Positions 28,011-61,951 of a stretch of DNA of 64,000 bases are shown in pieces. The position numbers were made by a program, and so were the translations under genes. Position 1 is the stretch's first letter; each line of letters starts with the position of its first letter. The DNA is from Maylandia zebra (Eukaryota; Chordata; Actinopteri; Cichliformes; Cichlidae), in NCBI RefSeq assembly GCF_041146795.1, contig NC_135185.1, positions 10,225,529-10,289,528 on the forward strand, read 5' to 3'. The notes under the pieces are model-generated. The model did not search any database. It was given only the letters and a program-made list of their open reading frames with translations, and was not told the DNA's origin.

Positions 28011-28717
28011 AGGTACAGTATTTAATTGTTGCATTTTAGGCCAGTTGTATGTATAATGTTAGATTGTGATAGTTACATCTCATGACTCCCAAATCACAAA
28101 AGTAAATTTTGTCCTCTTTTGTTGTTTCAGACTTTAAGTACAAGCACAGATGACCAGTTTGGATTTGCATTAGTTAAAGAAGAAATTAATGAAGCTGTGC
28201 TGAAGAATAACCAACGAGCAGCTGCTGCAAAGATCAAAGAGTTAATGATGAAGGAGAAAAACATCACACTAAATATCGCCATCACAGGAGAATCTGGTTC
28301 TGATAAATCCACCTTTGTTAATGCCCTCAGAGGGCTGTCCAATGATGACGAGGGAGCTGCTCCTACTGGTGTTACAGAAACCACCATGGAGGTCAAACCG
28401 TACCCCCATCCAAAGTGTCCCAATGTTACTTTATGGGATCTTCCTGGAATCGGCACCACCAAGTTTCCAGCTGATAAGTACCTGGAGCTTGTTGGATTTG
28501 AGAAGTTTGACTTCTTCATCATCATCTCAGACACTCGCTTCAGAGCAAATGACGTGAAACTCGCTCAGGAGATTCAGAAGATGAAGAAAAAGTTCTACTT
28601 TGTTCGATCAAAGATTGACAACAATATGCGAGCTGAGAGAAGAAAGAGAAACTTCAGTGCAGACGAGGCTCTGACAAAAATCAGAGACGACTGCGTTCAA
28701 AGTGAGTATTTGGTGAT

Positions 28718-28893
28718 GTCTGTGAAGGTTCTCAGTCATCCAGGTCATCGTAGTCAAATGAGCTTGCAAAGAAAAGCGTCTGGACTTCTTTAAGAAAAGC
28801 TTCTTCAGTTCAGAACTGAAGAAGCTTCTCAGATGAGAGGTGAAACGTCTTCAAGCAACTTAAAGAAGTCCAGACGCTTTTTTTTGCAAGCTC
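28718..28893. repeat. Foldback repeat directly after the IRG-A exon-1 donor
   Basis: Its arms AAGCGTCTGGACTTCTTTAA and TTAAAGAAGTCCAGACGCTT, plus an inner arm pair (GAAGCTTCTTCAGTTC and its complement), form a long hairpin. The 13-bp direct repeat AGTATTTGGTGAT flanks it (28705-28717 and 28894-28906). I recognise the sequence as a dispersed fish repeat but cannot name the family. Confidence 0.8.
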
Positions 28894-28906
28894 AGTATTT
28901 GGTGAT

Positions 28907-29795
28907 CATTTATCCCAGTGTGAGATTAATTTCTGGATGTGTTCTTTAATAATGTTCACTTTGTGGCTGTGTGTGAATGGAATAACCTTTATTTTCTGTT
29001 GTTTGCATCATCGCATACTCAGAAAAATGACAAATTAATTTGATTATCAGTAATCACTGAGAGGAGCTGTATGAACTTTATTTGATGTTTCAAGTGTATA
29101 AAGTTATTTAGATCTGTCCTCCTGCAGCTGCTGGAGAGGTCAGGCTTTTATTGGACAGTTGAACTTTAGAACACTGATCATTCATTAAACTGCTACTGTC
29201 TCTTTCAGGCTGATACCAAAATTTAGGATGAGAACAGATTTTTAATTTATTTGTTCATTTTTGACTGACAAGATAAAATGATCAATCCAATCAAATTCAT
29301 TTATTGGGTCAACAATGTATAAACATATAATCAGTTTTATCTCCAGTTTTTGTCTCCATCAACAAACATTACACTTTAGTTGTTTGATGTTTCTTGAAGA
29401 ACAGCTGCCTGCTGCTGTTAATCTCTAACTCGATGTTTGTTTGGTATTGTTCAGACTCTCTGGGCTGCAGTTTCTCTTCATAATAATCTTACATAAAAAA
29501 CACTCTAATCATTCCCATGACAAACAGCAGCAGATAGGATCCAAGATTATTCTATGGAAATGGCTTTTACACATAAAATGATAATAATAATAATAAACAA
29601 TAAGTGGAAATTAAATAGCTAATGCAGTGTAAGTAACCCAAAAATAATGTGCTTTGACCTACACAACTAAACTATAATCCTTTATAAATGTAGAGTCAGA
29701 AGAGTTAATGAATCCCCTGAATGGAAAAGCCTAGTTTTAGATCATTTATTATTTCATACTTAATCTTCACACTGTGTGTTTCTTCTGTGACGCAG
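28907..29795. other. IRG-A intron remainder
   Basis: AT-rich sequence with no ORF or clear repeat, ending in the acceptor TTCTGTGACGCAG at 29783-29795. Confidence 0.7.
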
Positions 29796-30559
29796 GTCTT
29801 CAGAGACAAGGCATCAAGTCTCCACAGGTGTTCCTGGTGTCCAGCTTTGAGCTCCACCTGTACCACTTCTCTCTCTTACATCAGACCTTAGACAGAGACC
29901 TTCCTGCACACAAGAGAGATGCTCTGCTGTGTGCCATGCCCAACTTCAACCCAGAGATCATCAGGAAGAAGAAACAAGCTCTGAAGTCCAAAATAAAATA
30001 CTGGGCTACTCTGTCTGCAGCCGGAGCAGCTGTTCCAGTTCCTGGTCTTTCTATTGTTGTTGATGCTGCTTTGCTGGTTGATGCTGTCACACATTTTGTT
30101 TTTGCGTTGGGTCTTGATGTCCCGTCTCTGAAGAGACTTTCTGCCAGAACAGGTGTGCCATATGCTGATCTGCGTTCCGTCATCATTTCACCACTGGCTG
30201 CAGCAGAAATAACTACAGGGTTCCTCTTGAAGGTGATAGTCCAACTTGGGTCTGTAGCTGCATTAATTGCAGCAGTGGAAGTGTCCAGATGGATTCCAAT
30301 TATTGGAATTCCAATAGCAATGGGTCTCTCTTTAACCACAACTTACAAAATTCTGAATTTGATCCTTGAAGAGCTCGCTGAAGATGCTCAGAGGGTGTTT
30401 GAAAGAGCTTTAGGCTGAACACATCAGTGTGAATTTGTAAATTAAAGATGAGTGAAACAAAAGAGTACAAATGAAATTAGTTTAAATCATTAAATATAAA
30501 TATATTGAAACCAAATAATGTTGCAGCTGCACATTTGAGCCATTATCCTACTATAGCTG

Positions 30560-31845
30560 ATAAATCAATCAAAGCTTTATTCGTCACATGCAGGTTGCCC
30601 TGCAGTGAAATGGGACCCCCCCCCCCGACCTTACACATATAGCACAAACATTACATGGGGATACAGGTCGGAGATGGAGGAGTAATCCGAAGCGAACACA
30701 GCAGCCGCCCTGCACAGCGCTACCATTCCAGCGCGGCACACAGACCCGCCGTGTTCCCTCGCAGGAAACAAGCATCGAAGGCGTTGGAAAGGGAGGGGGG
30801 ATGAGTGAGTGCCTATCAGTGTAAGTGTATGTGTGTGCGTGTCCATAGTTCAGCTGAGACAGTGTCCTTCGGCCTATCAGGCTAAGTAAACAGTCCTCCA
30901 GCCAATCCAGGTGTCCTTGCATGGGATGGGAAGAATAGCCGTAACACAGTCGTTATCAGGGAGTGATTGTTCGGCTCCAGCCTTGGGCCTGCAGCTGGCG
31001 CCATGATGGGGATCCGCAATGTTCATGTTGATTTTGTTAATTTCCATGCGAGCAGCCCAGGAGAGTTTTCAGGCTGCCCTAACACTCCGACACTGGTCTC
31101 TCAATCTCCCGTTGGAAAGTCGTGAGCCTCCCCATGATGGTATCAAACTTCTGTTCCATGGTGTTATCATTCTTTTGATTCTGAGACCTCACAACTGCAG
31201 TGATCCGTTCCACAATGTATTCCAACTGTCGCTCAAGGGTCTCATTTTGAGCAGGCCTCTCTCTGATGTATCCCCCCATACGCTCAATGGTGTTGTTTTG
31301 AGCCTTCACAGCAGCTGTAAGCGTCTCCAAGGTGTTGACCATATTACGTTCGTTGTGAGAGGTTGCGCCTCGTTCCATTGCGATTCCAGCGGGCAGCCTT
31401 GGGGGGGTTTGAACAGCCAGTTCCGCTCTCTTATTTCTCCGATAAACCAGGGCTAAGCCAACTCCAATCAGCATGAACCCTGTTATCACGGTTCCGAATA
31501 GATAGATATCTTCAGCGTCCTCGATCGACAGTCCCGCCAGGCACATGATCCTCCAGTTCTGCCACCCGTCCATCGTGTATCCGGCAGGGAAAGTCCCTCC
31601 AGGGCACTCAGGCTCTCCCGAGCCCAGATTTCTCGTTGAGAAAAGGGTGTCAATAGCATTCAGAGACCAGTTGATCAAATCCATAATTCTCTTTTAGGTT
31701 TTAGAGAACGACAGTGGGAGGCTATTCCAGGGAAAGTAATGCACACGAGACAAGACAAGGACATAGAGGCTAAGCAGGGAAGATAAGGGTGAGGAGGAGA
31801 GGAGAAAAGTGCGACCGCCTTCGCTGAGAGCTGAAGAAGAAAAAT
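30560..31845 (-). mobile_element. Retroposed element carrying a transmembrane ORF
   Basis: It interrupts the 3' flank of IRG-A. The flanks (GCTGCACATTTGAGCC before, CTCAGCAGGTCTCAT after) are close together downstream of IRG-D (62060-62115), so this interval is an insertion. On the minus strand it ends in GAATAAAGC and TTGATTGATT, a polyadenylation signal and simple tail as in non-LTR retroposons. Boundaries are good to about 20 bp. No RT is present. Confidence 0.6.
31079..31684 (-). CDS. Single-pass membrane protein with C-terminal coiled coil, in a retroposed element
   Basis: A 201-residue frame starting at an ATG near the 5' end of the element. Residues 1-60 form a short N-terminal part with two Cys (SGEPECPGGTFPAGYTMDGW, RIMCLAG). 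Residues about 62-83 (LFGTVITGFMLIGVGLALVY) form one membrane helix followed by a basic stop-transfer (RRNKR). Residues 110-195 are a predicted coiled coil (TLETLTAAVKAQNNTIERMG, LERQLEYIVERITAVVRSQ). There is no cleavable signal peptide; orientation N-out/C-in is inferred from the charges. I do not recognise the family. It could be a host gene captured by a retroelement or an accessory protein of one. Confidence 0.55.
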   Translation of the reverse strand: MDLINWSLNAIDTLFSTRNLGSGEPECPGGTFPAGYTMDGWQNWRIMCLAGLSIEDAEDIYLFGTVITGFMLIGVGLALVYRRNKRAELAVQTPPRLPAGIAMERGATSHNERNMVNTLETLTAAVKAQNNTIERMGGYIRERPAQNETLERQLEYIVERITAVVRSQNQKNDNTMEQKFDTIMGRLTTFQREIERPVSEC

Positions 31846-31849
31846 GTAT

Positions 31850-32446
31850 CAGAGGCCTCAGCAGGTCTCATTTCTTCTCATCACATCAATACAGGAACAA
31901 ATGTGATGTTATTATTCAGATAAAAGCTGCTAGAAGAGCTTTGTTCTAATCCTTTGTCTGATTTGGTGATGTCATCACTTTTTACAGATCAGGTGATCTG
32001 ATAGTTGCTCCTGAAATGTCGTCATCTGAACTTCTTTTGTTTGATTTACTTTGTGATGAAACTCTTTTATTATCAGCTTACAGCATAATAAATACTTTTA
32101 ATACAGAGTGTTTGATGATGAACAGAGGTGTGTAGAACAGAAACTGCTCTGTGGTGTTTTTTTCATTTTGACTATAGATTGTGATGAGAGTTCACTGCCC
32201 TCCTGCTTTTATAAATAAATTGTTCTTGATAAACATTTTACCATCAATGTCATTATTTAAGAAGTGTTTTAAATTAAACATGTTTAAACAAGGAGAGCTA
32301 TTCACCTCTAGTCAGTGTTGATGTTGGACACAGTATTACCTTTTCTGCCCTTTGAGGGAATTAGTGAACATCCATGAATCTATAGTCTGTCACAACTTTT
32401 AAACGTCTCTAAATTTTCATTCTTTGAAAATATGAGAGATTTTCAC
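31850..32446. other. IRG-A 3' flank, no gene recognised
   Basis: AT-rich; the first 60 bp correspond to the 3' flank of IRG-D. No ORF or element seen. Confidence 0.6.
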
Positions 32447-32873
32447 TGTCACGACTTTTGGACCTCACTTTGTCCAGTCTGAGGTCCAAAAGTTGTCTCT
32501 GAGTTCAGTCTGTGGATTTCCTGTTTTACTTTGAAGGTCTTGTCTCATGTTAGTGTATTCTGCTTTACTTCCTTGTCTTGTCTAGCCTAATGAGTCCCAG
32601 CTGTGTGCCCACCTGTTCCTCGTTTCCTCATGTGCCTACCAGTGTATTTTAATCCCTGTCAGTTAGTTCTTGTTGTTGTGTCGTTAACGGCGGTTTACTC
32701 TCACTTTCACTGCGTGTTCAGTTTGTTAGCCTGCCTTTTTAGTTTGTTTTTGTATTCTCAGTTTAGTTAGTTTTCTGCTCAGTTGCCTTCCAGCAATAAA
32801 GCTGAATGAATGAGTTACGTTTGTGTCCGTGAGTGCTGCATTTTAGGTCCTCTCCCTGCACACAGCCATAACA
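32447..32873 (+). mobile_element. Probable solo LTR
   Basis: It begins TGTCACGACTTTTGG, ends GCCATAACA, and has an AATAAA near 32795, resembling the end layout of the LTRs at 6500 and 13057. A small palindrome (GACTTTTGGACCTC and AGGTCCAAAAGT) is near its start. No clean target duplication is visible and there is no interior. Confidence 0.55.
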
Positions 32874-33680: not shown

Positions 33681-33707
33681 AAGTTCCGCTTCTGACGACC
33701 GTCCTTA

Positions 33708-35006: not shown

Positions 35007-38000
35007 GTGAAGAAGATGAGAACGAGGAACGCTCCAACAAAGGTAAAATCTTCTCACCTGATCAGCAGGAAAATGTGTTTCTATGATCATGTTGTTGTAC
35101 ACATGCTGTCTGCAGGAGAATCTCAAGGTTTGATTTCACACCTTCAGCAAAGTCTCAAAGGTTTGAACACATTGACTCGCTCAACTTTATTATTGTTGTT
35201 ATTGTTTTACTGATGATGTGATTGTAAATGTGTTTCTCCTGATTGGGAATCTTCACAGAAGAAAAAAGTTTGATGGTTGTTCGCAGCTTCATTTTGCTTT
35301 CAAAGCGTTCCACTCTCTTCATTCTCCAACCAGCTCAGTCACGTTTCCTCCGGGAGTTTTTCCAAAGAGCTTGAATATAATCGGAGCTCTTGTGGGATGA
35401 ATTTTTATCTCTTGTTGGTCAAACAGCTGTTTTGTGCTGCTGAGACAGAAATGATGGTACAGCTGAGAGGGGATGCTGTGTGTCTGCAGGACTGTTTCAT
35501 TTCAATAATCAGTGAATAATTGTGTTTTTATTGTGACCACTGAGGGTTTATAATGTAAATGAAAAGAACACAAAGTCCTCTGTTTGACTGTCAGTAAACC
35601 TTCACGTAGTTTTTCTGTATCTACATCACGTCTGTTACACAAACTTATCAGTGTGCATCAAACTGATTGAAAGTGACTCAGATTCATGTCTGACTTTCAC
35701 AGTAATGATTCATACAACATACATAAACCTAGTGATGCCCCGTGTGCTCCACACAGTGACTGTCTGTCACGGCACAGCAGTTTGGATTCACTCAGTCTGT
35801 ATAGGACTGTATCGTTCATGTTACCTGTGGGAGTTTGATTGTTTTATTGGTTCGGTCCAGTCACATGATCTGTTCTCCTGGTTTGTTTTTATCTCGCAGG
35901 TTCCTCAGGTGAGGACGTGAGTGGAAACATGGTAGGAAAGTCCAAATTTTTCCAAAGATCTTAGAGATAGTTTCTATGACAGTATCAGTCCTTAACAAAC
36001 TGTTTGCTTGTTTCCTGCAGTCAGTGAATGTTTCTGATGAACTCACCAAGTATCCATGTCAAAGACAAACTGAGACACTGATTGATAGACTTCAGCTTCA
36101 AGACAAACTGCAGCAGAAATTCTCACCAGAGGATTTTCTTCAGATCCGTCCACCTGTGACACGGCACCATGTCACATCTGAGAAACATCTGGCTCACATG
36201 TTTGTCTGCAGGCTGATAATGTTAGACTGCAGGGCCAGATATATTCCTGTAAGACCAGACAGTCCTGAGGGGACAAAGCCAAAGCCCAGGCCGGTGACTG
36301 ACATCCCTGAGAAGCATTACAGTGATTGGGAGGTTTTTCTGAACACCAGCGTGGACACAGAACAGACTCACCTGCATCCAATGGATGTCCAGATGGCCGT
36401 GTTTCACTGCTCAGACAGCTTCCTTAAACAGACGATGGTCACAAAGCTCTCTCAGTGTCAGTACGCTTTACCTTTGCTGGTCCCTGACCCAGTCACAATG
36501 GAGATGGAGTGTCCTCTGTGGACTTTCAGACAGATAACAAAAACCTGGACGGCGACTCAGATCAAAGATGGCTCACCTATCGTCACCATGAAGAGTGTTC
36601 CAGTCTGCAAAGCTCAGACACCCTTGGTGTCATTTTTCCGCCTGGGTTCTCTGTCAGTGTCTAAATCTCAGCTGATGAACGCTTTGATCAACGACCGCCA
36701 CAGCACCTTCTTCCACAGGAACTGCCCAGGAAGCACCAGGTCTCGCCATCTGATGGATGGTGTGGCAGAGATAGCCTGGTACTGCCCTGCTGGGTGATGC
36801 CTTCAGGGACTGCATGGCTTTTTGTAATCTTCACGGTGATGCTCTGCAGATTGAAAAACAGCGCGACATACTGATTGAAAAATCCTCCATCAACGTTTTC
36901 CTTGTTGCATCCCTGCAAAAAGATGAAGAAAGCGCATCACTTGTAGCCGACCTCTTTAAGTCTCATAAACCTTTAATATGTGTGAGTGTTGATGACAGCT
37001 GTGATGCTGTCAGGACTAAAAAGGGAAAATACAAAATGGGTCTCAAAGGCAGAAACCAGTCAGATGTATCTGAAGAGCTGAAAAAGATCATTAGAGAAGT
37101 TTTATCTTCTCTAGAAGATTCCAGTTTGAAACCATCCTTCCAGCTGGAAACCCTGGCTGAGCTCTCTGGAGTCAGAGTGGATGAAAGTGACCCAGCCTGT
37201 CAGAGAGGCAGATCTGCTGCTCTGGAAATAATGCAGCTGATTATGAAGGATAACCTGGATATCTCAAAGATCAAAGAGGAATTCCTTCCTTGTCAAAACC
37301 ATCTGTGGCATCACTTGAACAAAATATACAAAGAACTGAATCATCTCAGAGGAAACAGTGAAAAGGAGAAAAGTAAAAAGCAGCAGAAACTGATGGACAT
37401 GCGTCAGAAACAACGTGCTGCTTGCTGCAGTAAACTGATGGAGCTGTTCACTAACAGCCTGTCAGCACTGCCACCACCAGACAGAGAGTATTTCCTGAAA
37501 TGGACTCAGATCTTCATGGATGCTCTCTCCACAGAGGACGTTTCTTCTGTTCTCCAAAGTTATGATGAAAAGTGGTTGGAGGTCTTAGCTCTGAAGAACA
37601 AACATGACAAATCTGGTCTGTTATTAATGAAACAAACTGAGCTCCAAGACTTGTCCCACAAACTGCAGTCTGCATCCTTCGGCTTGGAGCACATGTTCAG
37701 AGAAATGGGACACATCTATGAAGCCCACAGAACAACAGCTGGAGAGAGCAGAGACGCTGACTGGTGTAAATACCCTGAGCTGGCTGCACAGCTGATGATA
37801 TCAGGACACCCAGTGGAGCTGATGGACGGGGATGCAGGTCACCTGCCTTTCACATGGATCTCCAGCCTCTTAGAGGAAGTCATCCAGAAACTGGGGGACC
37901 AGAGAGTTTTTGTGTTGTCAGTGTTGGGCCTCCAGAGCAGTGGGAAAACATCACTGCTGAGCTCCATGTTTGAACTGCAGCCTGCAGTAGGTGCTGGCAG

Positions 38001-39130
38001 GAGTACCAAGGGTGCCTTCATGCAGCTGCTCAAAGTATCAGAGGACATGAAGACAGACTTTGACTATGTTCTAGTGGTGGACACTGAAGGTCTGCAGGCT
38101 CCTGAGCTGGACGGTAACACCACTCGGTACTGTGACAACGAACTGGCGACATTTGTCGTTGCTCTGGGAAACGTGACACTGATCAGCATCTTTGGAGATG
38201 ATCTGTTGAAGATCCAAGATATTCTGCAGATTGTTGTTCAGGCTTTGATGAGGATGAAGAAAGTTCAGCTTTCTCCCAGATGTGTGTTTGTTCAGGATGT
38301 TCCAGATGTTGCAGCAGCAGAGAAGAACGTGGACGGAAAGAGACGCCTGCAGGAACATCTGGACCAGATGACCAAACTAGCAGCTGAAGAGGAGCTATGT
38401 GATGCTGAGCGCTTCAGTGATGTCATTGAATTTGATGTTCAGAAAGATGTGAAATACTGTGGGCAGCTGTGGGAGGGCAGTCCACCCATGGCTGCTCCTA
38501 ATCCAGCTTACAGCGAGAGCCTCCAAGAAGTGAAGAACACCATCCTCTCTAAAGCTTCAAAGTCTGCTGGGATCACTCTCTCACAGCTCAGAACCAAAAT
38601 TCAGGACCTGTGGAACGCCCTCCTCAGTGAGAACTTTGTTTTCAGTTTCAAGAACACACTTGAAGTTGTAGTGTACAGAAAACTGGAGACCCTGGCCATT
38701 AAGCAGATCTCCCACCTGAGGAGTAACATGAAGACCACTGAAGACCAGCTTCTTCACAGAGATGAAAGTGGAAAACTTGACGAGGCAGGGGTAAGTTATC
38801 TTTATCAAGAAACAAACTGAAAATTTGAAGGAATAAAAAAAGAAATGAAAACGTACTTTGAGGCTGTCAGAGAAATTCTGGCTCAGTGGACACTTTGATT
38901 TGAAATCAAAATCAGCAGCTTTTATATTGGATACTTGAAAGTGAAAAGAAAACAGTTTGAAGTCATCCAACAGAAAAATACTCAGAAAAAGGTGGATGAT
39001 AGGAACACAGTTTGAGAACAAACTGGTACAGAAGATCAGAGCGCTCGATTAGCAGTTGAAGGTCGAGGCCAAAGAAGACGATCTTCAATAACAGCTCAGC
39101 TCTGTTGAGGCTGAGTTACCGATTTAAATG
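35007..39130 (+). pseudogene. VLIG/GVIN (interferon-induced very large GTPase) pseudogene
   Basis: Two small acidic exons (35007-35042 and 35900-35931) join in frame to a long exon from 36021. Together they give EEDENEERSNK, SSGEDVSGNM and SVNVSDELTKYPC, the typical start of fish VLIG proteins. The long exon holds the VLIG N-terminal region, a frameshift with TGA at 36795-36797, then from 36814 helical sequence and the G domain: GLQSSGKTS (about 37926), DTEGLQAPEL (about 38083) and a QDVPDV segment. After VSYLYQETN an in-frame TGA (38818) and another TGA (38896) interrupt recognisable homology (IKKEMKTYFEAVREILAQW), which fades at about 39130. Family members run well over a thousand residues further in one exon. 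Three or more lesions plus truncation make this a pseudogene. Confidence 0.88.
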
Positions 39131-41196: not shown

Positions 41197-41789
41197 ATGG
41201 TTACAGAAGATATTACAGATGTTCTGAAAATTAAAAAACCACTGGCTGCTGCAAATATCAAGTTACCACACGAGGACAACATAACACCTCTAAATATCGC
41301 CATCACAGGGGAATCTGGTTCTGGGAAATCCACCTTTGTTAATGTCTTCAGAGGTCTATGTGATGATGAGGAGGGAGCTGCTCCCACTGGTATGACAGTA
41401 ACCACCATAGAGGTCACAGCGTACCCCCATCCAAAGTATCCCAGTGTTATCTTGTGGGATCTCCCTGGAATCGGCACCACCAAGTTTCCAGCTAAGAAGT
41501 ACCTGAAGCTTGTTGGATTTGAGAAGTTTGACTTCTTCATCATCATCTCAGACTCTCGCTTCAGAGAAAATGATGTAAAACTCGCTCAAGAGATTCAGAG
41601 GATGAAGAAAAAGTTCTACTTTGTTCGGTCAAATGTTGACAAAGATATACGAGCCGAGAAAAGAACCCGGAGAGAGTTCAACATGGAGAGGACACTTTCA
41701 ACCATCAGGAAGAACTGCACCCAAGGTGAGCTTCTTCTTTTCTTTGATTAGAGTTAATATATTTGTTTCACTCTAAACATCATTTCCAC

Positions 41790-41825: not shown

Positions 41826-44092
41826 TTTTTTATTTGAAAGCGCTTTTCAACACACCCAAGGACACTTGCCACAAAACACATAATAGAACAATAACAACGA
41901 AGAAAAATAAGAAAACAAAAGCACAATATAACAGAAACAAACAATAGGTTCACAGTGAATATGCAGATTTGAACAGATGGTTTTGAGTTGAGCTTTAAAC
42001 TGGGGGAGAGAATCAGTGTTTCTTATATTTGGGGGTAGAGAGCTCCACAGCCTGGGAGCAGAGCAGCTGAAAGCTCTGCTTCCCATGGTGCTGAGGCAGA
42101 AAGATGGCACAGCAAGCTGGATAGAAGAAGAAGCTCGAAGTGAGCGGGTGGTGCTTACTGATGTGAGATTTCTTATATCTACTCTCTAGCCTTCGAGCTT
42201 TGGCCTTCAAAATGGTAAATGGCCTGCATTTGTATAGCGCTTTTCTAGTCCCTAAGGACCCCAAAGCGCTTCACACTACATTCAGTCATTCACACACTGG
42301 TGATGGAAAGCTACATTGTAGCCACAGCTGCCCTGGGGCGCACTGACAGAGGCGAGGCTGCCGGACACTGGCGCCAAACACGGGGTTAGTATCTTGCCCA
42401 AGGATATTTGGCATGCAGCCAGGAGGCAGCCTGGGATCGAACCACCGAAGCAAGCGAAGAAAACAGAGTTTTTACAGGAGACATTGAGTAAACAATAATT
42501 ATAATACAACAACAGATCATCAGGGGTAGAATAGAGGTCTGGAATCTGAATATTGTCCAATCTGGTAGTGAGAATGTCCATATCAATGGACATTTACAAT
42601 TTAGTTATATGTATCAGGTGTAGTGATGCAGCGTGAAGCATCACAGCAATAATCACATAATAACTCACTGTATGAGTAGATTGCTCTTAACATGGAGCTA
42701 ACTAAATACAACAATATATAAGCACATATTTCACATGCTGTATGGTTCATTTCTCCCATGTAGACAGTTTAATTACTATAAAAGGAAGATGTAGATGAAT
42801 AAATCTAATCCTCCCCCTAACATTGACCATGAACACCACCGCTGCTCTGCACCAGTCCACAAAAGTGCATCACAGTAAACGTCACCACAGTTCTGCATAC
42901 TAATCGCTAAACTGTATTTTCATGCAACCTTTGAGTAACACAGAAATTTTATATTTCAGTTAGTTTTGTGAGATGTTTCACGAAAAAAGAAATTCAGCAA
43001 CACATCATGTAAAACTGCAGTATCTGATTTACTGGTGACCCTGCAGCCTCTGAGTAGATGCACCTATGGAATAAATATGAAAGTCCCAGCTGACTTCCTT
43101 CTTGTGTTATCATCTTTACAAGACTTTTAGAAAGGTTGACCTCTGACCTTCAACTTGAGGTTAAGGTCACTGAGATTTGTACTCGTCTGAGGGTTTTACT
43201 AGATGCGTCTATGGTGTCCATCTGAAAATCCAACGTCATGTTGTTCTCATCGAGATGACGACAATCCGCTATCAGCCTTTCACAGCTGAGAGGTGAAAGG
43301 ATGTGTTGGTGTAAGCAGGCCGTGGCATCAATTACTGAGACAGTTTCTCCGAACATTACCAGAAGTTACACCAGGGTGCAGCACACAAAGAAGTCCACAG
43401 TCAGATGTGTTAGTCTGCATTTCTCATTTAATCTTCACACCGTGTGTTTCTTCTGTTACGCAGGACTCAGAGATTTGGGCATCGAGTCTCCGCAGGTCTT
43501 CCTGGTGTCCAGCTTTGAGCTCCACCTGTACGACTTCCCTCTGTTACATGAGACCCTAGAGAGAGAACTTCCTGAACACCAGAGAGATGTTCTGCTGTTT
43601 GGTATATGCAACATCATCAAGAAGAAGAAAGAAGTTTTTCAGGCTGAAATAACACTCTATGCTACTCTGTCTGCAGCTGTACGTACAGCTCCTCTGGGGA
43701 TTTCTTCTGTTTTTGACAGCACCTTAAAGGCTGCTGTCACAGGTTATGTAGCTGGGTTTGGTCTTGACAGCCCATCGCTGAAGAGACTTGCTGCCATCAC
43801 AGGTGTCTCCTACACTGATCTGTGCGCTGTCATCAATTCACCGCTGGCCACAAACACCATAACTACAGATCTTATCCTGGATGAGTTGACGACACTTCCA
43901 AGCACAGCTAAAATAATGAGAGCAGATAACGTGTGCAGGTTCATTCCACTGTTTGGATCCCTGCTGACAGCTGGTTTCTCTTTCACTATAAGCAGTCGAG
44001 CTCTGCAGTTTTTCCTCAGTGAGCTCGCTGATGATGCTGAGAGGGTGTTTAGAAGGGCTCTGAATTTGACCTCCTCAGTGTGGTACTGTTAA
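41197..44092 (+). CDS. IRG-C: immunity-related GTPase with altered G4 motif
   Basis: Coding exons 41197-41725 and 43464-44092 join in frame to 385 residues. The ATG follows acceptor GTTCCAG by 9 bp and has a good context (AAAGATGG). The G domain has an intact P-loop GESGSGKST (about residue 44) and G3 DLPGIGTT. The G4 motif, SKxD in its neighbours, reads SNVD: Lys is replaced by Asn (AAT at 41632-41634). This Lys packs on the guanine and P-loop, so weaker or altered nucleotide binding is expected. The helical domain starts GLRDLGIESPQVFLVSSFEL and is more diverged in its second half than those of IRG-A and IRG-B. The N-terminal leader is about ten residues shorter than in IRG-B. The 1738-bp intron holds LINE and other repeats. 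No break in frame: a live but possibly GTPase-impaired gene. Confidence 0.88.
41792..41823. repeat. (AAT)n microsatellite
   Basis: About ten ATA/AAT triplets in the IRG-C intron. Confidence 0.95.
41824..42205 (-). pseudogene. LINE 3' fragment in the IRG-C intron
   Basis: The minus strand encodes CSAPRLWSSLPPNIRNTDSL, RT C-terminus, and upstream pieces in another frame (LPQHHGKQSFQLL). It runs into the same 3' end as the fragment at 27660 (GCGCTTTTCAACACACCCAAG). Confidence 0.7.
42210..42450. repeat. Dispersed teleost repeat
   Basis: Starts TGGTAAATGGCCTGCATTTG and includes CCCTAAGGACCCCAAAGCGC and GGCGCACTGACAGAGGCGAG. I know this as a common fish interspersed repeat but cannot give a family. 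A possible tail is CTTGCCCAAGGATA. Confidence 0.55.
42451..43463. other. IRG-C intron remainder
   Basis: No ORF or named repeat recognised. It ends in the acceptor TTCTGTTACGCAG at 43451-43463, nearly the same as in IRG-A. Confidence 0.6.
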
Positions 44093-44201: not shown

Positions 44202-46303
44202 AGAATAGAATAGAATTCAACTTTATTGTCATTGCACATGTCACAGGTACAGGGCAACGAAATGCAGTTTGCATCCATCCAGAAGTGCTTTAGCCATGAT
44301 ATAGATATATTACAATATATATTAGCAATAATATAGATATCTAAGTATATTACAGAAATGGGTCTATTAAGGTATGTTATGAATATTCTATAACTATAAG
44401 TATGTACAGGCTGTAGTGAGTACAGGCTATGAACAGGATATAAATATGAAAAACTATACAGAATCTGAGATATACAGCTATACAGAAATGTGAACTAAGC
44501 AAGTTATAAGCAGTTGTAGGATTAAAAATTATCGTATGTACAGAATGATTATTTACACAGAACTATACAGTAGTGCAGTTAAGATACGTGAGGGTGTGGA
44601 TAATTTCTACAGAGGCTATATAAAGTGCTAGTGGTTGTGAGTGGTGGTTCAGTCCATGTTATTATTGTGTGTTTGAGGGTACAGTTGTCCATTGTGTGTG
44701 TGTTGTTGTGGGTGTGTGTATGTTCAGTCCATGAGTTAATGTGGGTCAGATGTCAGGAGGCAGAGTTCAGGAGTCTGACAGCTGTGGGGAAGAAGCTGTT
44801 CCGGTACCTGGTGGTCTTAGTCCGGAGGCTCCTGTGGCGCCTCCCAGAGGGCAGGAGGGTGAAGAGTCCATGTGATGGGTGACTGGGGTCTTTGATGATT
44901 TTCCCAGCCCTTTTCAGACACCGCTTCCTGTAGATGTCTTTTATGGCAGGAAGTGTTGCTCCGGCGATGCGGTAGGCAGTTTTCACGACCCTCTGCAACG
45001 CCTTCCGGTCCGAGGCAGAGCAGTTCCCGTACCAGACTGTTATACAGTTGGTCAGGATGCTCTCGATGGTGCAGCGATAGAAGTTCACCAGGATGTCTGA
45101 GGACAGGTGGTTCTTCCTCAGAGTCCTCAAGAAGAAGAGGCGCTGGTGAGCCTTCTTGACCAGCTTGGAGCAGTTGGTCGTCCAGATGAGATCCTCGGAG
45201 ATGTGGACTCCCAGGAACTTGAAGCTGCTCACACGCTCCACAGCCGTCCCCTTAATGTGGATGGGTGGATGTGGATCAGCATTCCTCCTGTAGTCCACGA
45301 TGAGCTCCTTGGTCTTCTCGGTGTTAAGCAGCAGGTTGTTTCTGTCGCACCACTCAGCCAGACGATCCACATCCTCCCTGTAGGCGGCCTCATCGTTGTC
45401 ACTGATGAGGCCAATCACCGTGGTGTCATCTGCAAACTTAATGATGGTGTTGGAACCATCAGCAGGTCTGCAGTCGTGGGTGAAGAGGGAGTAGAGGAAA
45501 GGGCTCATCACACAGCTTTGTGGTACACCGGTGTTCATCGTGATTGTAGATGAGCAGTGGTTATCCAGCCGGACATGTTGGGGGCGGTTGGTCAGGAAGT
45601 CCAGTAACCATTTGCAGATGAGGGAACTGATGCCCAGCTCTGTCAGTTTCCTGATGAGTTGTGAGGGGTGGATTGTATTGAATGCTGAACTGAAGTCTAT
45701 AAACAGCATTCTGGCGTAGGTGTTGTTGTTGTCCAGGTGTGAGAGGACAGAGTGCAGTGCGATGGAGACTGCATCCTCTGTGCTCCTGTTCTGGCGGTAT
45801 GCGAATTGGTGGGGGTCCAGGGTGGGGGGGAGACAGGATTTGAAGTGTGCTAGGACCAGCTGCTCTAAGCACTTAGTGATGATGGGGGTGAGTGCTACTG
45901 GGCAGTAGTCATTCAGGCTAGATGGGTTGGAGTTTTTGGGTATCGGGACGATGGAGGTGGAGTTGAAGCAGGCCGGTACCACAGCGTGGGCCAAGGACAG
46001 GTTGAATATGTCTGTCAGCACTCCTGCAAGCTCCCCAGAACACGCTCTGAGAACACGCCCGGGGATGCCATCAGGACCTGCAGCCTTGTGGCCATTGATC
46101 CTGCTCAGCACCGCTCCTACATCGGTGGGGGAGAGAGTCAGAGGTTGGTGGTCTGGCGTCATGTCTGCTTTGGTTGTGGTTGTGGTGTTCTCTCGCTCAA
46201 AACGAGCATAAAAGTTGTTGAGCTCGTTGAGGAAGGAGACATCAGAGGATGCGGGGGAGGGTTCTGGAAATATCTGGAAAAGTGCAGCAGTTTCCACTCT
46301 CAT
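44202..46303 (-). mobile_element. L2-type (Maui-like) LINE, 5' truncated
   Basis: The RT frame fills the left part of the element on the minus strand. The 3' end is an AATAAAGTTGAATTC segment with a TTCTA-type tail (plus 44202-44225). The endonuclease is missing, the usual outcome of abortive target-primed reverse transcription. Confidence 0.85.
44753..46303 (-). pseudogene. L2-type LINE reverse transcriptase, open but N-truncated
   Basis: A 516-residue frame with no internal stop: linker ([13 protein letters not shown]), RT ([38 protein letters not shown], catalytic IKFADDTTVIG) and C-terminal region (RRHRSLRTKTTRYRNSFFP). The motif around the fingers-palm junction has PQS where this family has PQG. 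No endonuclease is encoded and the first Met is internal to the parent protein, so the copy cannot move by itself. Confidence 0.85.
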
Positions 46304-48232
46304 CCAGGAGTGGACAGCTCACATATAACATCCTGAATTATCAGTCGAACTAATAGGAATGAACTTAGAAACAGTAAATTCAAAACGAGGAACTAAACCC
46401 ACAAATGCAAACTTCAGCAGCACTGAATAATGTAGAAGAAGCCAAACTCAAATATTACATAAAGATCTAAATGCTCATCATACTTCAGTGATAATAAAAC
46501 AAAATGAGGAAGTTAAAACTCAAACAAACAAACATCAAAAATGTAAATTTAAATATTCCATTATACCTCTCTGAGTTTCCTGCCTTTAGTCTGAACACCA
46601 AAGGACATGAACTCTCTTTAATGGCGGTGCTTTTAAATGTTTTTATGAATGAACTGCTTATTTTATGTTTCTTGTTTTTAAAGATTGTGTTCGTTGCCTT
46701 TGACTCATTTCAGTAAATAATGTAAACACTTTTCAGCATTTAATAATTGAAACTTGAGATCTAGAAGAAAAAAAATTGTGGTACACTGTCAACTCAAACC
46801 TTTTCCTGTCTACTTTCTGGTTCTGCTTTTAGCTCCTGAACTCAGAGCTCTGACACACTGTGACATCGTTCTCTTCGTCATCGCGGTTTGTTACAACTAA
46901 TCATTAACAGGGTTTTTCTTTCTCCATCATTCTCTGTGAAATGCTGATATATGTGAGCCACTGCTGAGAGTTTTTCTTTCCTGATCAGTGGTTTAAAGAT
47001 GCTCGTCCTCCCCTCAGACTCTCTGATGTTCAGCTTTCTTCCTGACATGATGTTTGCTGGTTAAAGTCTGTCTGTGGGTGAACAAAGACTTGTGTTGACT
47101 TTGTGGTGATGTATTCACTTTTGGTCTGACTCAGTGGTTTGCATATAACTTTTTCCTTATGTACAAACAAGCTGACATGATACACGTCCCAAGTTTGATG
47201 GTTATTTGGCTGATTTTGGAGAGTAAAGATGAAAATAAGCAGCTTGTTAGATGCGTGTTTATAATGGGACTTTCCATTTGTTTGAGATCAGATTAGAAAA
47301 CACGAAACATGAGAAAGCTTCAGTTTTCCTGTAAAGGATTCCTCTCTTATTGGCTTTATTTAGTGAGTTATATTTTGTGTGTGTTCACAGAATCACAACT
47401 GAATGTTAGATTAAGAACTGCAGTCAGACCCAAACCTGCCAGACAATCAGCTGATCTTCCTCAATGATCAGCACACCTGCTTCCACTTCCTGATCGGCCT
47501 CTCAGGTTTTATATCGCTGCTCCATCATCATCCACCTTTTACCAGAGTGTCTGTAAAATACTTTCCCGCCATTTCTGTGCTTTTCTAACTGATAAATAAT
47601 TGGACAGTTGTTGTGAATGAGCCATATAAATAAAATTAAATTGAAACTGATTCAGTGAAATCTATTGTTGAATTAAAAACAAATCAAACACACTTACACT
47701 AATGCTAATGTGTTTATAAACAGCATTTTATTATTAACATGGCTGATGGTTATAAACAGTTTATATCAGTTGTAGTTCCTGATTCTGACCACTGGAGGGC
47801 AGTGAACACAAACTGTTTTATCATTTTACTAAATCACAAATAAAATACAAGTTCAGATAAAAACAGCAGCCGTCATATCAGCTGATTACACACACAATGT
47901 GAAAAAGCATCACAGCAATGATTCAGCAGCTCCTCTACGTTGTAAACAGGTTTTATCTGTCAAACAGGATCGAATTTATTCTGATCACTGTGAAAGATAA
48001 ATGTGCAGCTGACTGTGACTCAGTACATATATATTGTTTTGCCTTTGTTAAATATTGCAGTGAGAGCGAGAGTGTGGAGCAGACACACATCAGGGTCAGA
48101 GGTCAAATCCAGGACTCTGCATTTAGCCACACATGAGGTCACCTGTTGAACCTGTGAGCTAAACTGGTGCCTGGATTCAGTCGTTTAGGAGAATTTACAC
48201 ACAGCACACAGTCACTAAGCTTCATTTGAGTT
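46304..48232. other. Intergenic between the L2 LINE and IRG-B
   Basis: AT-rich, with only short meaningless frames. No transposon ends or exons recognised. Confidence 0.6.
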
Positions 48233-49544
48233 TTACTGACCCAGAGCTTTTTCAAACACCTTCTCAGCATCTTCAGCGAGCTCACTGAGGATAGCATTCA
48301 GAACTTTATACGTTGTGATGAAAGAGAGAACCATGGCTACTGGGATTCCAATTAACGGAATAAATCTGGATACTTCCTCTGCTGCCATTAATGTAGCTGT
48401 GCGTCCCACTTGGGTCATGACCTTCAGGAGGAGCTCTGTAGTTATTTCTGCTGCAGCCAGTGGTGAAATGATGACAGCCTGCAGATCAGCATATGGCACA
48501 CCTGTTCTGTCAGAAAGTCTCTTCAGAGACGGGATATCGAGACCAAACGCAAAAACATAATCTGTGACAGCACCAACCAGCACAGCAGCATCAACAGCAA
48601 TAGAAAGACCAGGAAGTGGAACAGCTGCTCCAGCTGCAGACAGAGTGGCCAACAAATATAATCGGCGCTTAAAAGCTTCTTTCTTCTTCCTGATGATCTC
48701 TGGGTTAATGTTGGGCATGACGAACAGCAGAGCATCTCTCTTCTTTGAAGGAAGGTCTCTGTCTAAGGTCTGATGTAAGAGACTAAAGTCGTACAGGTGG
48801 AGCTCAAAGCTGGACACCAGGAACACCTGCGGAGACTCGAAGCCTAATCCTCCGAGTCCTGTTTCACAGAAGGAACATGTTAACATGATTACACACATAA
48901 AAACAAATAATGTAAAGCTAAGGCCTGAATATTAAAGTGAATCCATAATGTGCTCCCACTGAGCTGTAAGTGATCAGACACTCACTCTGAACGCAGTCGT
49001 CTCTGATTACTTTGAGAGTTCTCTCTGCACTGAAGTCTCTCTTTCTTCTCTCAGCATTTATATCGTTGTCAAGTTTTGAGCGAACAAAGTAGAACTTTTT
49101 CTTCATCTTCTGAATCTCCTGAGCCAGTTTCACGTCATTCTCTGTGAAGCGAGTGGCTGAGATGATGATGAAGAAGTCAAACTTCTCAAATCCAAAAAGC
49201 TTCAGGTACTTCTTAGCTGGAAACTTGGTGGTGCCGATTCCAGGAAGATCCCACAAGATAACATTGGGATACTTTGGATGGGGGTACGGTGTGGCCTCTG
49301 AGGTGGTTTGTGTAACACCAGTAGGAGCAGCTCCCTTCTCATCATCACATAGTCTTCTGAAGGCATTAACAAAGGTGGATTTACCAGCCCCAGACTCTCC
49401 TGTGATGGCGATATTTAGTGGGATATTATGTTGTTGTTTTAAATTTTCTTCAATCTTTGCAGCTGCTGCAGCAGTGTCGTTGTTCTGCAGGGCTTCTTTA
49501 ACTCCAGGAATCAATTCCATATATAAGTCATCTGGGTCCTCCAT
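48233..49544 (-). CDS. IRG-B: immunity-related GTPase, all G motifs intact
   Basis: Exons 49544-48986 and 48858-48233 (127-bp intron, donor GTGAGT) join in frame to 394 residues. The start ATG lies in GGATCAGCATGG, 7 bp after an acceptor, the same as IRG-D. P-loop GESGAGKST (about residue 51), G3 DLPGIGTT and G4 RSKLDND are all canonical. The helical domain includes VFLVSSFELHLYDFSLLHQT, a hydrophobic stretch (AAGAAVPLPGLSIAVDAAVL) that may touch membranes, and the C-terminus VFEKALGQ. There is no N-terminal MG myristoylation signal. IRGs bind GTP and assemble on vacuoles enclosing intracellular pathogens in mammals; the fish role is inferred. A non-coding first exon with a GC-box promoter lies at 50432-50570. 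Confidence 0.93.
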
Positions 49545-50599: not shown

Positions 50600-51500
50600 G
50601 TCCTTCCTGTGGCTGTGAGTGGTTAAGAAATGGTCTCTGCTCCAAAGATGAGCGTGCACACAGCACTGTAAGCAGGATTCTGCAGAGACTTGAAAAGTTG
50701 CTGCTTACACCCTGAGTTACACAATGAGTCTTTCAGATGTCCCACATGGACTGTCCGTGGCACGTGTACTCATGCTGGACATCACATGGTCTTATTTTTA
50801 TTAACCCTCGACTCAGCTGCAACGTGCTTACAGTTAGTTACGGGTTTAGTTTCCTTTTCATCAGAATTATCTGCTGTCATCCAGACATGAGCTGATCAAT
50901 CATTTAACCAATTTCCCATCAAACCATAAAGATTGATGGAAAGTCACAGAACCATTGCTTGCATGTGTGCTGATAAAATGTTTTTTCCATATTAGGTTTT
51001 AGCTTCTCTTGCATGCATAAGATGTGGGGGCTGGTCTCTTTGCTGTAATTTTCCATTGCACATAAGAAACCACAAGTTCCTGTTTTTATAAGTTCAGCTA
51101 TACCGCTCACTTCTGCTTTGTTGGTTCATTGAAAGCTCACGCCATATGTGGTGTGATAGCAAACGTCACACACACACACTCACTTGCTCACGTACACGTG
51201 CCTTAACTGTCACATAACTAACGAGATGTTTTTATAACTGCTGTTGTCAATAAAAGAGACAAGTCAGGTTGGAAGTTGGCTGAGATCAGGTGAAGAGCTT
51301 TCAACTCTGAGACCCTGACCGGACATCTCTGCTGCAAGTAAAAAGACAAAGAGCGCTGTGTGGTCTTGCTTTGTTCACACGGATCTGTCTCTGAGTCAGC
51401 GGGGTTTACGTTTTAGACCCAACAACTATAAATACAAACTTTTTTTTTTTACTTTTTTTACATCCCCACATAGAAAAAAACTCAAAATCTTACCACGTTT
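50600..51500. other. Region between two IRG promoter cassettes
   Basis: No ORF of interest or recognised element. Confidence 0.5.
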
Positions 51501-58280: not shown

Positions 58281-58443
58281 TAGTGATGGGATTTATGACT
58301 CTTTTTAGCGAGCCGGCAACGAAACGGCTCTTCAGGTTGTTTTGTTGCTTTAATTAATTTATTATTAACAATAATATAAAATTATGCACCAAAGGAATTA
58401 CTAATGTAAAAAAAAAAAAGGGTTTATTTATATATGTTTATAA

Positions 58444-58812
58444 GCACGGTGGTTAGCACTGTTGCCGCACAGCAAGAAGGTCCTGAGTTCAATTCCACCA
58501 TCAGGCCGGGGTCTTTCTGTGCGGAGTTTGCATGTTCTCCCCGTGTTTGCGTGGGTTCCCTCCGGGTACTCCGGCTTCCTCCCACCGTCCAAAGACATGC
58601 AGCTTGTGGGGATAGGTTAATTGGATAATCCAAATTGTCACTAGGTGTGAATGAATGTGAGTGCGAATGGTTGTCTGTCCCTGTGTGTTAGCCCTGCGAC
58701 AGACTGGCGACCTGTCCAGGGTGTACCCTGCCTCTCGCCCTATGACAGCTGGGATAGGCTCCAGCGCCCCCCGCGACCCTGAAAAGGATAAGCGGAAGCG
58801 GATGGATGGATG
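58444..58812 (+). repeat. SINE-like repeat with RTE-type tail
   Basis: It has TGGTTAGCACTG (58450-58461, A-box-like) and GAGTTCAATTCC (58485-58496, B-box-like), so a pol III promoter is possible. It ends GATAAGCGGAAGCGGATGGA, the same kind of tail as the RTE at 2219-2246. This suggests mobilisation by an RTE/Rex3 LINE. Confidence 0.65.
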
Positions 58813-58829
58813 GATATATAAATATATGT

Positions 58830-59188
58830 GGTGGCCCCTAGAGACAAAGCATGTACAAACCCCAAAACACATTCCTAGAGTTAACTGAACTTCAAAACAG
58901 AGCTACCTAGATCACTTAAATTACACAATTGAAAGCATGTGTGTATTGTTTGTGTATTTATACACAGGCGCTCATATATATTAAAATAATTAAAAAAAAA
59001 ATGTTCATTTACCTGTTACTACCACACACCAAATCCGGTCGTTGGTACTTGCTGGCTTGTGTAGCCACTAGGTAACAAAAGCTCAACACTGCGCCCAGCA
59101 TCCTGGAGCACTTCTGTTGTCTTTTGTACGTGTTTTGGAGTTTGTACGTGTTTTGAAGTTTGTATGTGCTTTGTCTCTAGGGGCCACC
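58830..59188. mobile_element. MITE with about 31-bp inverted repeats
   Basis: GGTGGCCCCTAGAGACAAAG at 58830 and its exact complement ending at 59188. The repeats extend to about 31 bp with two or three mismatches (TACAAAC box). The target duplication is unclear. Near the right end a TTTGTACGTGTTTTGGAG-type unit repeats. Confidence 0.8.
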
Positions 59189-59769
59189 GTAAATATACTT
59201 TTATTTATCCACGCCACATAAAATGAAATAAATAAATCATATAATACAAAAACCAACTAGTCACAGTTCAACTTTTAACTATTTAAATTTTCAGCTTTTT
59301 CCTTTTAAACAAATTTAAAGTGAAACAACACAAAACACTGCAAACCACAACACAATTAAATATAAATTAAAATATGAAAACAAAAAGAAGATGCACATTC
59401 TCTGTCATATGGACCTGCATGAATAAACTTTCTGAATCCTTTATCATCTGCAACTGAAAATAGTTGTGGATGATTATTATACCTTTCTAATGTGACGTTG
59501 TTGTCCCTGGCTCTCTTTCTCTCTCTCTCCTGCTCTGTTCCTGTGCTACTGCGAGTGTAACTACCGCCCCTCCCCCCTCTGCCCAGTGCAAGCACAAGGC
59601 TTTGCACTGGGAAGAGGGAGTGAAGTGGGGAAAAAAGTGCGAGAGAGAGGGTGAGAGAAAGAAAAAAAATCCCCACGGCTCGCGATAAGGAGCCGGCTCG
59701 CGTCGTTCTCGTCAAAGATCCGTCTCTAAGAGCAGTTTTGTTCGTGACCGACACATCACTAGTGCTTTC

Positions 59770-60555
59770 AAGAAAACAGTCATACAACTGACTGTTCTGT
59801 AGGCTTTTCTACTTTCGACAGAAAGTGTATTTGCAGCGTTAAGTGGTTTCTGCGTCACTAAAACAATACTCCCACTCAGCACAGGCAGAAGCCGAAGGAG
59901 TGTTCATGCTGTTAAAATGTGCGAAAGTCTAAACAAAAATACAAGAAATTAATTAAAGTTTTTGTTTGTTTCTCACAACATATTGCATTTTTTTCAGTCA
60001 TACTTTCGGACTCAAGATATGTCATCCACAGCAGAATGCAAATAACTTTAAGGAAGGTTTCTTCATCCTCAGCTCAGCAACCTCTGGACCATGACATGTT
60101 TGCGCAGAATTAACTGGTAGTGGTCAGTGTGAAACGGACTGTAGTATAATTTACCTATGGCAAAATAAATAATGCTGTCATTCCTACTTTTTAGAAAACA
60201 TCTTTAGTCTTTGGTTTATGTAAATAGTTACAGCTCACCCAGCCTTTCATTGGCTCTTTTACAAGTTGTTTTTGCAAACTCCTGTCCAAAGTTGTCTGTC
60301 TATGATGTCTTTGATGTATTTAAAAAAATCTGGTAATTGTGAAACATTTCATGCAGTGCTTTAATTGAATCCCTCGAATTAAAGCTGAAAGACTGGCTTC
60401 AATCACAACTTGATTGTGTGGTTTAAAATCCTGTGGTACGACGACAACTTTAAAAAGCGTCTTTGTTCAAATACTTTTAGATCCAAGTTTAGTTTCTGTG
60501 TTTCCTCATAATAGTGCAGTAATTTTAAATGCATCCCTTTCTTCTTCTGTTAAAG
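59770..60555. other. IRG-D 5' intron, right part
   Basis: AT-rich, without recognised elements. It ends at the acceptor CTTCTGTTAAAG (60544-60555). Confidence 0.55.
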
Positions 60556-60562
60556 GATCAGC

Positions 60563-61951
60563 ATGGACGATCTATCTAATCCACATCCAGAAGAAATTGC
60601 TCGAGTTAAAGAAGCGCTGAATGACAACGACACTGCTGCAGCAATTGCAAAGATTAAACAGTGTTTTATTAAGCAAGATAATATTCCACTAAAAATTGCC
60701 ATTACAGGAGAATCTGGTGCAGGTAAATCCACCTTTGTTAATGCTTTCAGAGATATGGGTGATGAAGAAGAGGGAGCTGCTTCAACTGGTGTTACACAAA
60801 CCACCTCAGAGGTTACAGCACACCCCCATCCAAACTATCCCAATGTTACTCTTTGGGATGTTCCTAGAGTTCGAACCCCACATTTTGATGAGTACCTGAA
60901 ACCTGTTGGATTTGAGAAGTTTGACTTCTTCATCATCATCTCAGCCACTCGCTTCAGAGAAAATGATGTGAAACTCGCTCAGGAGATTCAGAAGATGAAG
61001 AAAAAGTTCTACTTTGTTCGCTCAAAGATTGACAACGATATACACGCTGCAGAGAGAAGTCAGAGAGAGTTCAGTGAAGAGAAGATACTGGAACATATCA
61101 GGACAAACTCCATTCAAAGTGAATTTATTTTTATTTCTACAATATCAAAATTTGTTGAATTCATCCTGATTTTGTTTAAAACACATCATCCTTGTGACTG
61201 ACATGAGGTTTTATTGAGCCACAGTGAGAAATTGAGGCTCATTTGTAGGATTCTATCAGAAACAAGTGTGAAAGTGAGTTTCATGATCAAAATCATAAAC
61301 TTTGAAACGCATTTCTGTCTTTTTCACACCACAGGTCTCCAGAAACAAGGGTTTCGGTCTCCACAGGTCTTCTTGGTTTCCAGCTTTGATCCCCGTCTCT
61401 ACAACTTCCCTCTCCTACACGAGACCTTCAGGAAAGAACTTCCTGAACTCAAGAGAGATGCACTGCTGTTTGCCACATCCAACATGAACCTGGAGATCAT
61501 TAACAAGAAGAAAAAAGCTTTTCAGTCCAACATGAAATACATCACTCTGCTGTCTGCAGCTCTAGCAGCTGTTCCAGTTCCTGGATTTTCTGTTGCTGTT
61601 GATCTGATCTTGATGTTCACATCATTCCTGAAATATGTTGCTGGGTTTGGGCTTGATAAGCCATCGCTGAAGAGAATTGCTGCCAGCTCTGATGTTCCAT
61701 ACACTGTTCTGAGCAATGCTGTCAGGTCACCCCTGGCTGCAGAAAAAATAGACAAATATTTTATTATGAAGGTGTTGATAACAGCTGCAGCAAAGGGAGC
61801 ATCCAGATTCATCCCAAAATGTGGAATCCTAGCAGCAGTGAGCCTGTCTTTCATCATTCCCTACAGTTTTCTGAAGATGTTTCTTAATGTCTGTGCTGAC
61901 GATGCTCAGAGGGTATTTGAAAGGGCTCTGGGTTGGAGCACCTCAGAGTGA
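60563..61951 (+). CDS. IRG-D: immunity-related GTPase with degenerate G3 motif
   Basis: Exons 60563-61118 and 61335-61951 (216-bp intron) join in frame to 390 residues. The start lies in GGATCAGCATGG, identical to IRG-B. P-loop GESGAGKST and G4 RSKIDND are intact. The G3/switch II motif, DLPGIGTT in the others, reads DVPRVRTP: the invariant Gly is Arg (AGA at 60866-60868), and two residues are missing just after it. Loss of this Gly should block the GTP-dependent switch while leaving nucleotide binding possible. The intron donor is GTGAAT, weaker than the GTGAGT of IRG-A and IRG-B. The helical domain is full length (GLQKQGFRSPQVFLVSSFDP to RVFERALGW). Open throughout, so it may be a live, hydrolysis-defective member. 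Confidence 0.88.

Follow-up and report, generated by a model that had tools for sequence, protein, structure and literature searches.

A Probable irgf-Type Cluster of Four IRG GTPase Genes in Maylandia zebra, Three with Different Altered G Motifs

Results

The window analyzed is a stretch of 64,000 nucleotides from the cichlid fish Maylandia zebra (contig NC_135185.1, positions 10,225,529 to 10,289,528) that contains four genes of the IRG (p47) GTPase family, called here IRG-A, IRG-B, IRG-C and IRG-D. Each consists of two exons, one encoding the G domain and the other the helical domain. IRG-A (plus strand) has its G-domain exon at 28131..28701 and its helical-domain exon, which ends in a TGA stop codon, at 29796..30418. 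IRG-C (plus strand) occupies 41197..41725, beginning with an ATG at 41197, and 43464..44092. IRG-B lies on the minus strand, with its ATG at 49544, a G-domain exon at 48986..49544 and a helical-domain exon at 48233..48858, and IRG-D (plus strand) spans 60563..61118, with its ATG at 60563, and 61335..61951. The helical-domain exon of IRG-C shows in-frame gaps of 12, 3 and 3 nucleotides with respect to the other copies and that of IRG-D one of 21 nucleotides; throughout the nucleotide alignment every gap has a length divisible by 3. The Pfam domain IIGP (PF05049) scored above the cut-off in all eight IRG open reading frame (ORF) stretches (ten stretches were tested, the other two being neighbors). 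The domain spans both the G domain and the C-terminal helical domain, which places the genes in the IRG family. A profile of the four helical exons matched the solved helical domains of mouse Irgb10 (E 1.9e-22), Irgb6 and Irga6. A tblastn search of the window with the eight IRG ORF translations as queries (E up to 1e-3) found no further IRG copy.

A single phase-1 intron with GT..AG ends interrupts the same codon in all four genes, directly after the residue aligned to Irga6 position 215. Its length is 1094 bases in IRG-A, 1738 in IRG-C, 127 in IRG-B and 216 in IRG-D. The splice donor of IRG-D, GTGAAT, lacks the G at +5, yet it matches seven of the nine positions of what we take to be the donor consensus, exactly as many as that of IRG-B, and a weak donor was dropped as a mark against IRG-D for this reason. 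The zebrafish and pufferfish irgf genes are described as having a single intron where G-domain helix 4 ends, and the irge genes as having none in the reading frame (PMC1297648, cited, like the other papers below, from the accessible part of its text). The four cichlid genes agree with the irgf description, a grouping that rests on intron position and on comparison with the printed text of that paper and not with its sequences.

Residues are numbered as in Irga6, to which the fish genes were aligned. The alignment confirmed what the initial annotation of this DNA had reported, namely that G1 is lost in IRG-A, G4 in IRG-C and G3 in IRG-D. In G1 of IRG-A (GESGSDKS) an Asp replaces Gly81, with G3 (DLPG) and G4 (SKID) retained. 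G4 of IRG-C reads SNVD, with Asn in the place of Lys184. In IRG-D, G3 reads DVPR and belongs to a switch II (DVPRVRTPHF) where Arg replaces both Gly129 and Gly131 and two codons are deleted. IRG-B is the sole copy that keeps all three motifs (G1 GESGAGKS, G3 DLPG, G4 SKLD). The change in IRG-D is not one hit, since 8 of the 12 switch II columns that are identical in IRG-A, IRG-B and IRG-C are altered (two of the eight being the deleted codons), compared with 11 of 93 elsewhere in the G exon (Fisher p 9e-5, for a stretch picked after inspection). The motif lesions of IRG-A and IRG-C consist of one residue each, that is, one of 12 and one of 11 private changes, respectively. Motif positions were not hit above the rate elsewhere in either gene (1 of 12 versus 11 of 86 in IRG-A, 1 of 12 versus 10 of 85 in IRG-C), so that these motif hits alone are within chance.

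The position of Irga6 Glu106, which is Glu in the aligned rows of mouse Irga6, Irgb6 and Irgb10, holds Glu in IRG-A, Gln in IRG-B and IRG-D, and Val in IRG-C. This residue is essential for activated hydrolysis by Irga6, and none of the Glu106 mutants in the accessible text of PMC3042988 was able to activate it. IRG-B, initially described as an intact GTPase, does have G1, G3 and G4, but with Gln at this position its sequence is not fully canonical. When the mouse standard for GKS effectors is applied (intact G1, G3 and G4 plus Glu106), none of the four genes has the whole set: IRG-B has the motifs but Gln106, IRG-A has Glu106 but has lost G1, and IRG-C and IRG-D combine an altered motif with Val or Gln at 106. 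The residues at the positions of Lys82, Thr102, Thr108, Arg159 and Asp164 are retained in all four. Quasi-IRGs are collinear IRGs with modified GTP-binding motifs, a description that applies to IRG-C, to IRG-D and, if it is translated, to IRG-A. An AlphaFold2 model of the IRG-D G exon built with the four-row alignment was unusable (mean pLDDT 36.3, pTM 0.22).

IRG-B and IRG-D have their ATG directly after a common short leader, AAGGATCAGC, and IRG-C has its own ATG. IRG-A has no in-frame ATG in the region where IRG-B, IRG-C or IRG-D starts. Its first one, at 28245, is located just before G1, at about Irga6 residue 62 and beyond the greater part of the N-terminal helical region. A search of the upstream 4 kb for phase-0 coding exons was undiscriminating, with four candidates for IRG-A, none for IRG-B, two for IRG-C and three for IRG-D. 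A complete helical domain and splice structure had been attributed to all the copies; the splice structure is indeed common to the four, but the N-terminal helical part of IRG-A is doubtful, as it would be incomplete unless an upstream coding exon exists. The marks of a pseudogene in IRG-A are the missing start and an omega (the ratio of replacement to silent substitution rates) not below 1, with frame and splice sites intact. IRG-C and IRG-D keep start, frame and splice sites, and their G-domain omega is below 1 (borderline in IRG-D), with a helical omega near 1. IRG-A is probably a dying gene because its two-exon model has no start codon and its G-domain branch shows no purifying selection.

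The codon-level data are four paralogues of one haplotype, without orthologues. A scan of viral contigs with the IRG-B G exon ORF gave six pattern matches and a scan of genome contigs with the four-row G alignment gave 589, none of which was confirmed as a relative; there is therefore no outgroup at the codon level. The codon model, run with our own script, was fitted to 157 gap-free codons of the G domain and 193 of the helical domain, with free-ratio fits on two of the three topologies, the one pairing A with C and B with D (AC/BD) and the one pairing A with B and C with D (AB/CD). The G domain of IRG-C is under purifying selection: omega was 0.38 on AC/BD and 0.40 on AB/CD, with twice the log-likelihood difference (2dl) from omega 1 being 8.15 and 6.57, and three-gene star fits gave 7.00-7.46 in all three subsets that hold IRG-C. 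The G domain of IRG-D is borderline (omega 0.53 and 0.50, 2dl 3.66 and 3.86, in the same order). The values for IRG-B were 0.39 on both topologies, with 2dl of 3.56 and 4.35. Those for IRG-A, 2.4 and 1.7, are indistinguishable from 1 (2dl 1.78 and 0.89; 0.62-1.49 in the star fits). The initial annotation had taken neutral rates in the G and helical domains, measured apart, as the sign of random decay. The outcome is mixed: omega of the helical exon is near 1 in every gene, and the G domain of IRG-C is constrained, with that of IRG-D borderline. A mixture of site classes (constrained, neutral and fast) accounts for the helical exon better than plain neutrality does.

Neutral evolution of the reading frames was simulated along each terminal branch using the AB/CD branch lengths and the sequence of IRG-B as the start (that of IRG-A when testing IRG-B). 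The probability of finding no stop codon was 0.062 for IRG-A, 0.016 for IRG-B, about 0.0005 for IRG-C and about 0.0003 for IRG-D. The mean number of stops expected was 7.39 in IRG-C (3.96 + 3.43) and 8.03 in IRG-D (3.95 + 4.08), and none was observed in either. After neutral evolution over 0.2 substitutions per codon 7% of the frames are still open, and after 0.3 the figure is 2%. Plain random decay of IRG-C and IRG-D over most of their history is unlikely because their frames have remained open well beyond the neutral expectation. Random decay, the alternative offered at the outset, would describe IRG-A, with no start codon and no purifying selection, better than it does the other two.

The G and helical exons favor different topologies, which indicates exchange between the IRG copies. 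AC/BD is the best topology for the G exon, 5.3 log units over AB/CD, and AB/CD is the best for the helical exon, 22.5 log units over the next. Fourteen of the 29 site patterns for AC/BD are located in the first 40 codons, the least certain part of the alignment. Recent gene conversion was considered as the main cause of the high DNA identity of the G domains and rejected, as the neutral branch lengths of the G and helical exons are similar (0.58 and 0.54 for A+B, 0.70 and 0.70 for C, 0.73 and 0.88 for D; AB/CD free-ratio fits). The difference between the two exons resides in replacements.

Comparison of site models M1a and M2a, the latter with a class of omega above 1, gave 2dl of 14.06 and 15.43 for the G exon on the two topologies and 10.33 for the helical exon (AB/CD only). 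None of 80 G-exon sets simulated under M1a (AC/BD) reached 14.06, the maximum being 5.27. The helical exon was tested in two of the four three-gene subsets and gave p 0.008 for BCD and 0.002 for ABC. Of the 18 G sites ranked highest, ten are found within 24 columns that correspond to Irga6 190-214 (permutation p 0.0012, the cut at 18 being our own choice). In this the cluster may resemble mouse Irgb2-b1, where positive selection is found around G-domain helix 4 and, in Irgb2, also at alpha-d; the alpha-d and helix 4 region of Irgb2 takes part in ROP5 binding (PMC3810784, PMC6420625). Mutations that block binding of ROP5 to Irga6 are located at 161, 162, 164, 196 and 197 and, in helix 4, at 209, 212 and 213, and this helix is said to be necessary for oligomerization (PMC3393671). 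The same paper prints E209, and the aligned Irga6 chain shows Ile at the position numbered 209. Positions 159, 164, 196 and 209 are invariant across the four fish IRGs.

Candidate interferon elements were searched with what we take to be the consensus patterns of the interferon-stimulated response element (ISRE) and the gamma-activated sequence (GAS). A candidate ISRE matching the consensus perfectly is located at 50848..50861 (plus strand), about 1.3 kb upstream of the IRG-B ATG. The window has two perfect matches where 0.11 would be expected, the second being inside the IRG-A coding exon (28640-28653), and allowing one mismatch gave eight against 4.25 expected. Loose ISRE-like matches upstream of IRG-C (one of them in T-rich sequence) and of IRG-B (a second site) were not counted as evidence. 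Expression evidence for fish IRGs is thin in the accessible literature, an example being Kryptolebias IRGF1, which differs between lines (P 0.037).

Discussion

The reading that we favor, and to which we would give an even chance of being correct, is that of an irgf-type cluster that evolves through the birth and death of genes, some exchange of sequence among its members and rapid change at surface sites, and in which IRG-C and IRG-D would be maintained quasi-IRGs, IRG-A a dying gene and IRG-B the copy with all the motifs. IRG-C and IRG-D are probably real, translated quasi-IRGs. It is from the observed motif changes, gene structure, open frames and substitution patterns that we infer their translation, folding, partners and biological role. 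Nucleotide binding by IRG-C may be weak or nucleotide exchange fast, and in IRG-D the gamma-phosphate would be uncoupled from switch II. Both would keep the IRG fold and could bind other IRGs such as IRG-B, or a pathogen inhibitor of IRGs, through a conserved G-domain face and the fast-evolving helix 4 side. They would then act as hydrolysis-impaired partners or bait and not as lone membrane-destroying enzymes. Either role, decoy or partner, is a possibility.

Several of the results weigh against this reading. Constraint on the G domain is borderline in IRG-B as well as in IRG-D (2dl in the three-gene star fits 1.63-5.17 and 2.92-4.48, respectively), and the helical exon is compatible with an omega of 1 in all four genes, IRG-B included (largest 2dl 1.05 in the free-ratio and 1.31 in the three-gene fits). 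Over about their final quarter to third, the IRG-C and IRG-D branches could have been neutral and still be compatible with the stop codon test. The M2a result for the G exon is weaker in sets of three genes (p 0.028 without IRG-A, 0.011 without IRG-C, 0.055 without IRG-D and 0.147 without IRG-B), and site tests, applied here to four paralogues only, can be inflated by recombination. Of the eight Irga6 positions at which mutations block ROP5 binding, only 197 is among the 18 top sites, so that the overlap between the fast sites of fish and mouse is regional and not residue by residue. Finally, the four ISRE and GAS patterns were absent from the 3 kb upstream of IRG-A and of IRG-D.

Ordinary decay, by which IRG-A, IRG-C and IRG-D are duplicates that are losing function and have been caught before stops or frameshifts appeared, must be taken seriously, although we think it rather unlikely. 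IRG-A, unconstrained and with no start codon in its two-exon model, is what decay would produce. The helical omega near 1 in all four genes and the presence of pseudogenes in every mouse IRG haplotype examined (PMC3810784) point the same way, as do the motif hits of IRG-A and IRG-C, which are single residues at a rate no higher than in the rest of the G domain. What decay does not accommodate is the lack of stops in IRG-C and IRG-D, where about 7-8 each would be expected had they been neutral since the split, together with gaps that keep the frame and a constrained G domain in IRG-C. This last feature, the clearest constraint in the cluster, would also fit altered proteins that are working GTPases, the cluster being a set of diverged effectors. 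The Lys to Asn change in G4 of IRG-C would then mean fast exchange, a parallel being the fast-exchange mutants of Ras Lys117. The intact G1 of IRG-C and IRG-D and the conservation of Thr102, Thr108, Arg159 and Asp164 in all four genes are consistent with this explanation. It is nevertheless clearly unlikely, considering that two Gly to Arg changes (129 and 131) and the deletion remodel switch II of IRG-D and that IRG-C has Val106, when no Irga6 Glu106 mutant in the accessible text of PMC3042988 activates hydrolysis. The Glu106 argument takes the mouse residue as reference and bears also on IRG-B and IRG-D, which have Gln106.

The initial annotation had also drawn an analogy to the GMS regulators, and IRG-A, IRG-C and IRG-D could be imagined as functional analogues of these Irgm proteins, holding IRG-B in the GDP state. 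The loss of a G motif in a preserved fold is superficially like the Lys to Met change in G1 of mammalian Irgm1-3, which are also family members with a non-canonical G motif (PMC3042988). However, GMS-specific residues are Arg, Gln and His at Irga6 positions 106, 159 and 164 (PMC3042988), whereas at 106 the fish IRGs carry Glu, Gln or Val, and they retain Arg159, Asp164 and also Lys82. With all three GMS residues absent, a GMS-like regulator identity was rejected. Moreover, the fish genomes surveyed in 2005 had no IRGM genes according to the accessible text of PMC1297648, and we regard functional analogy as highly improbable. Another proposal starts from the mammalian catalytic set, which is complete in none of the four proteins: the cluster would encode a complex for division of labor or bait, in which one subunit binds nucleotide and its several partners are pseudo-enzymes with fast-evolving helix 4 faces that may bind pathogen inhibitors or each other, shielding or timing the active subunit. 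Mouse Irgb2-b1, a two-unit tandem that binds Toxoplasma ROP5, offers a model for bait action (PMC3810784, PMC6420625). The fish top sites cover only one of the eight ROP5-blocking positions, which lowers the odds of the proposal, and we consider it very unlikely.

The cluster had been proposed as a distinct arrangement. This did not hold, since zebrafish quasi-IRGs irgq1-irgq3 were described beside normal IRGs by Bekpen et al. in 2005, who called their GTPase function doubtful (PMC1297648). As far as that accessible text goes, the cluster is a further example of a phenomenon in print since then and not a new kind of system. In both fishes IRG homologues carry modified GTP-binding motifs, and zebrafish irgq1 adjoins apparently normal IRGs. 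It differs in being found among irge genes, which have no reading-frame intron, and in being transcribed in tandem with irgg (PMC1297648). The genes described here have an irgf-type intron, show no tandem arrangement and are each altered in a different motif, the irgq genes being compared by description only. Among the open-access matches listed, no title or abstract opening dealt with a group of fish genes in which three G motifs are altered in different ways. The locus is a small natural set of IRG paralogues that have lost different parts of the nucleotide pocket with frame and domain layout preserved, and change is concentrated in the region of the G domain where it is also found in mouse Irgb2. 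If expressed, IRG-C and IRG-D would allow one to ask in fish whether IRGs that are pseudo-enzymes serve as baits or as regulators or are only passengers.

Other Features of the Window

A stretch resembling the large GTPases URGCP and VLIG (Pfam URGCP_GTPase) is located between IRG-A and IRG-C at 35913-38820 (plus strand). It consists of two frames that change near 36,797, with a stop at 38,820, and looks broken or partial in contrast to the unbroken frames of the neighboring IRG genes. A 204-codon open frame at 31079-31693 (minus strand) has a single hydrophobic segment and is without a Pfam match at E 0.001.

The segments 13055-18950 and 18201-24096 are two copies of a retroelement arranged as a direct tandem, and they share 99.98% identity across 5896 bases. 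A stretch of 750 bases recurs at 13055, 18201 and 23347, as if the tandem elements shared the middle long terminal repeat. The tandem at 13055-24096 is a very young event, and the elements are labeled as Ty3/gypsy-type from the appearance of their ORFs, without a family search. ORFs at 5837-6568, 4789-5409 and 44753-46318 (all on the minus strand) resemble what we take, by inspection, to be a Tc1-type transposase and long interspersed nuclear element (LINE) reverse transcriptases. An open frame of 845 codons at 7172-9709 (plus strand) contains a long array of near-identical repeats of the type SAGGSEGPVQP.

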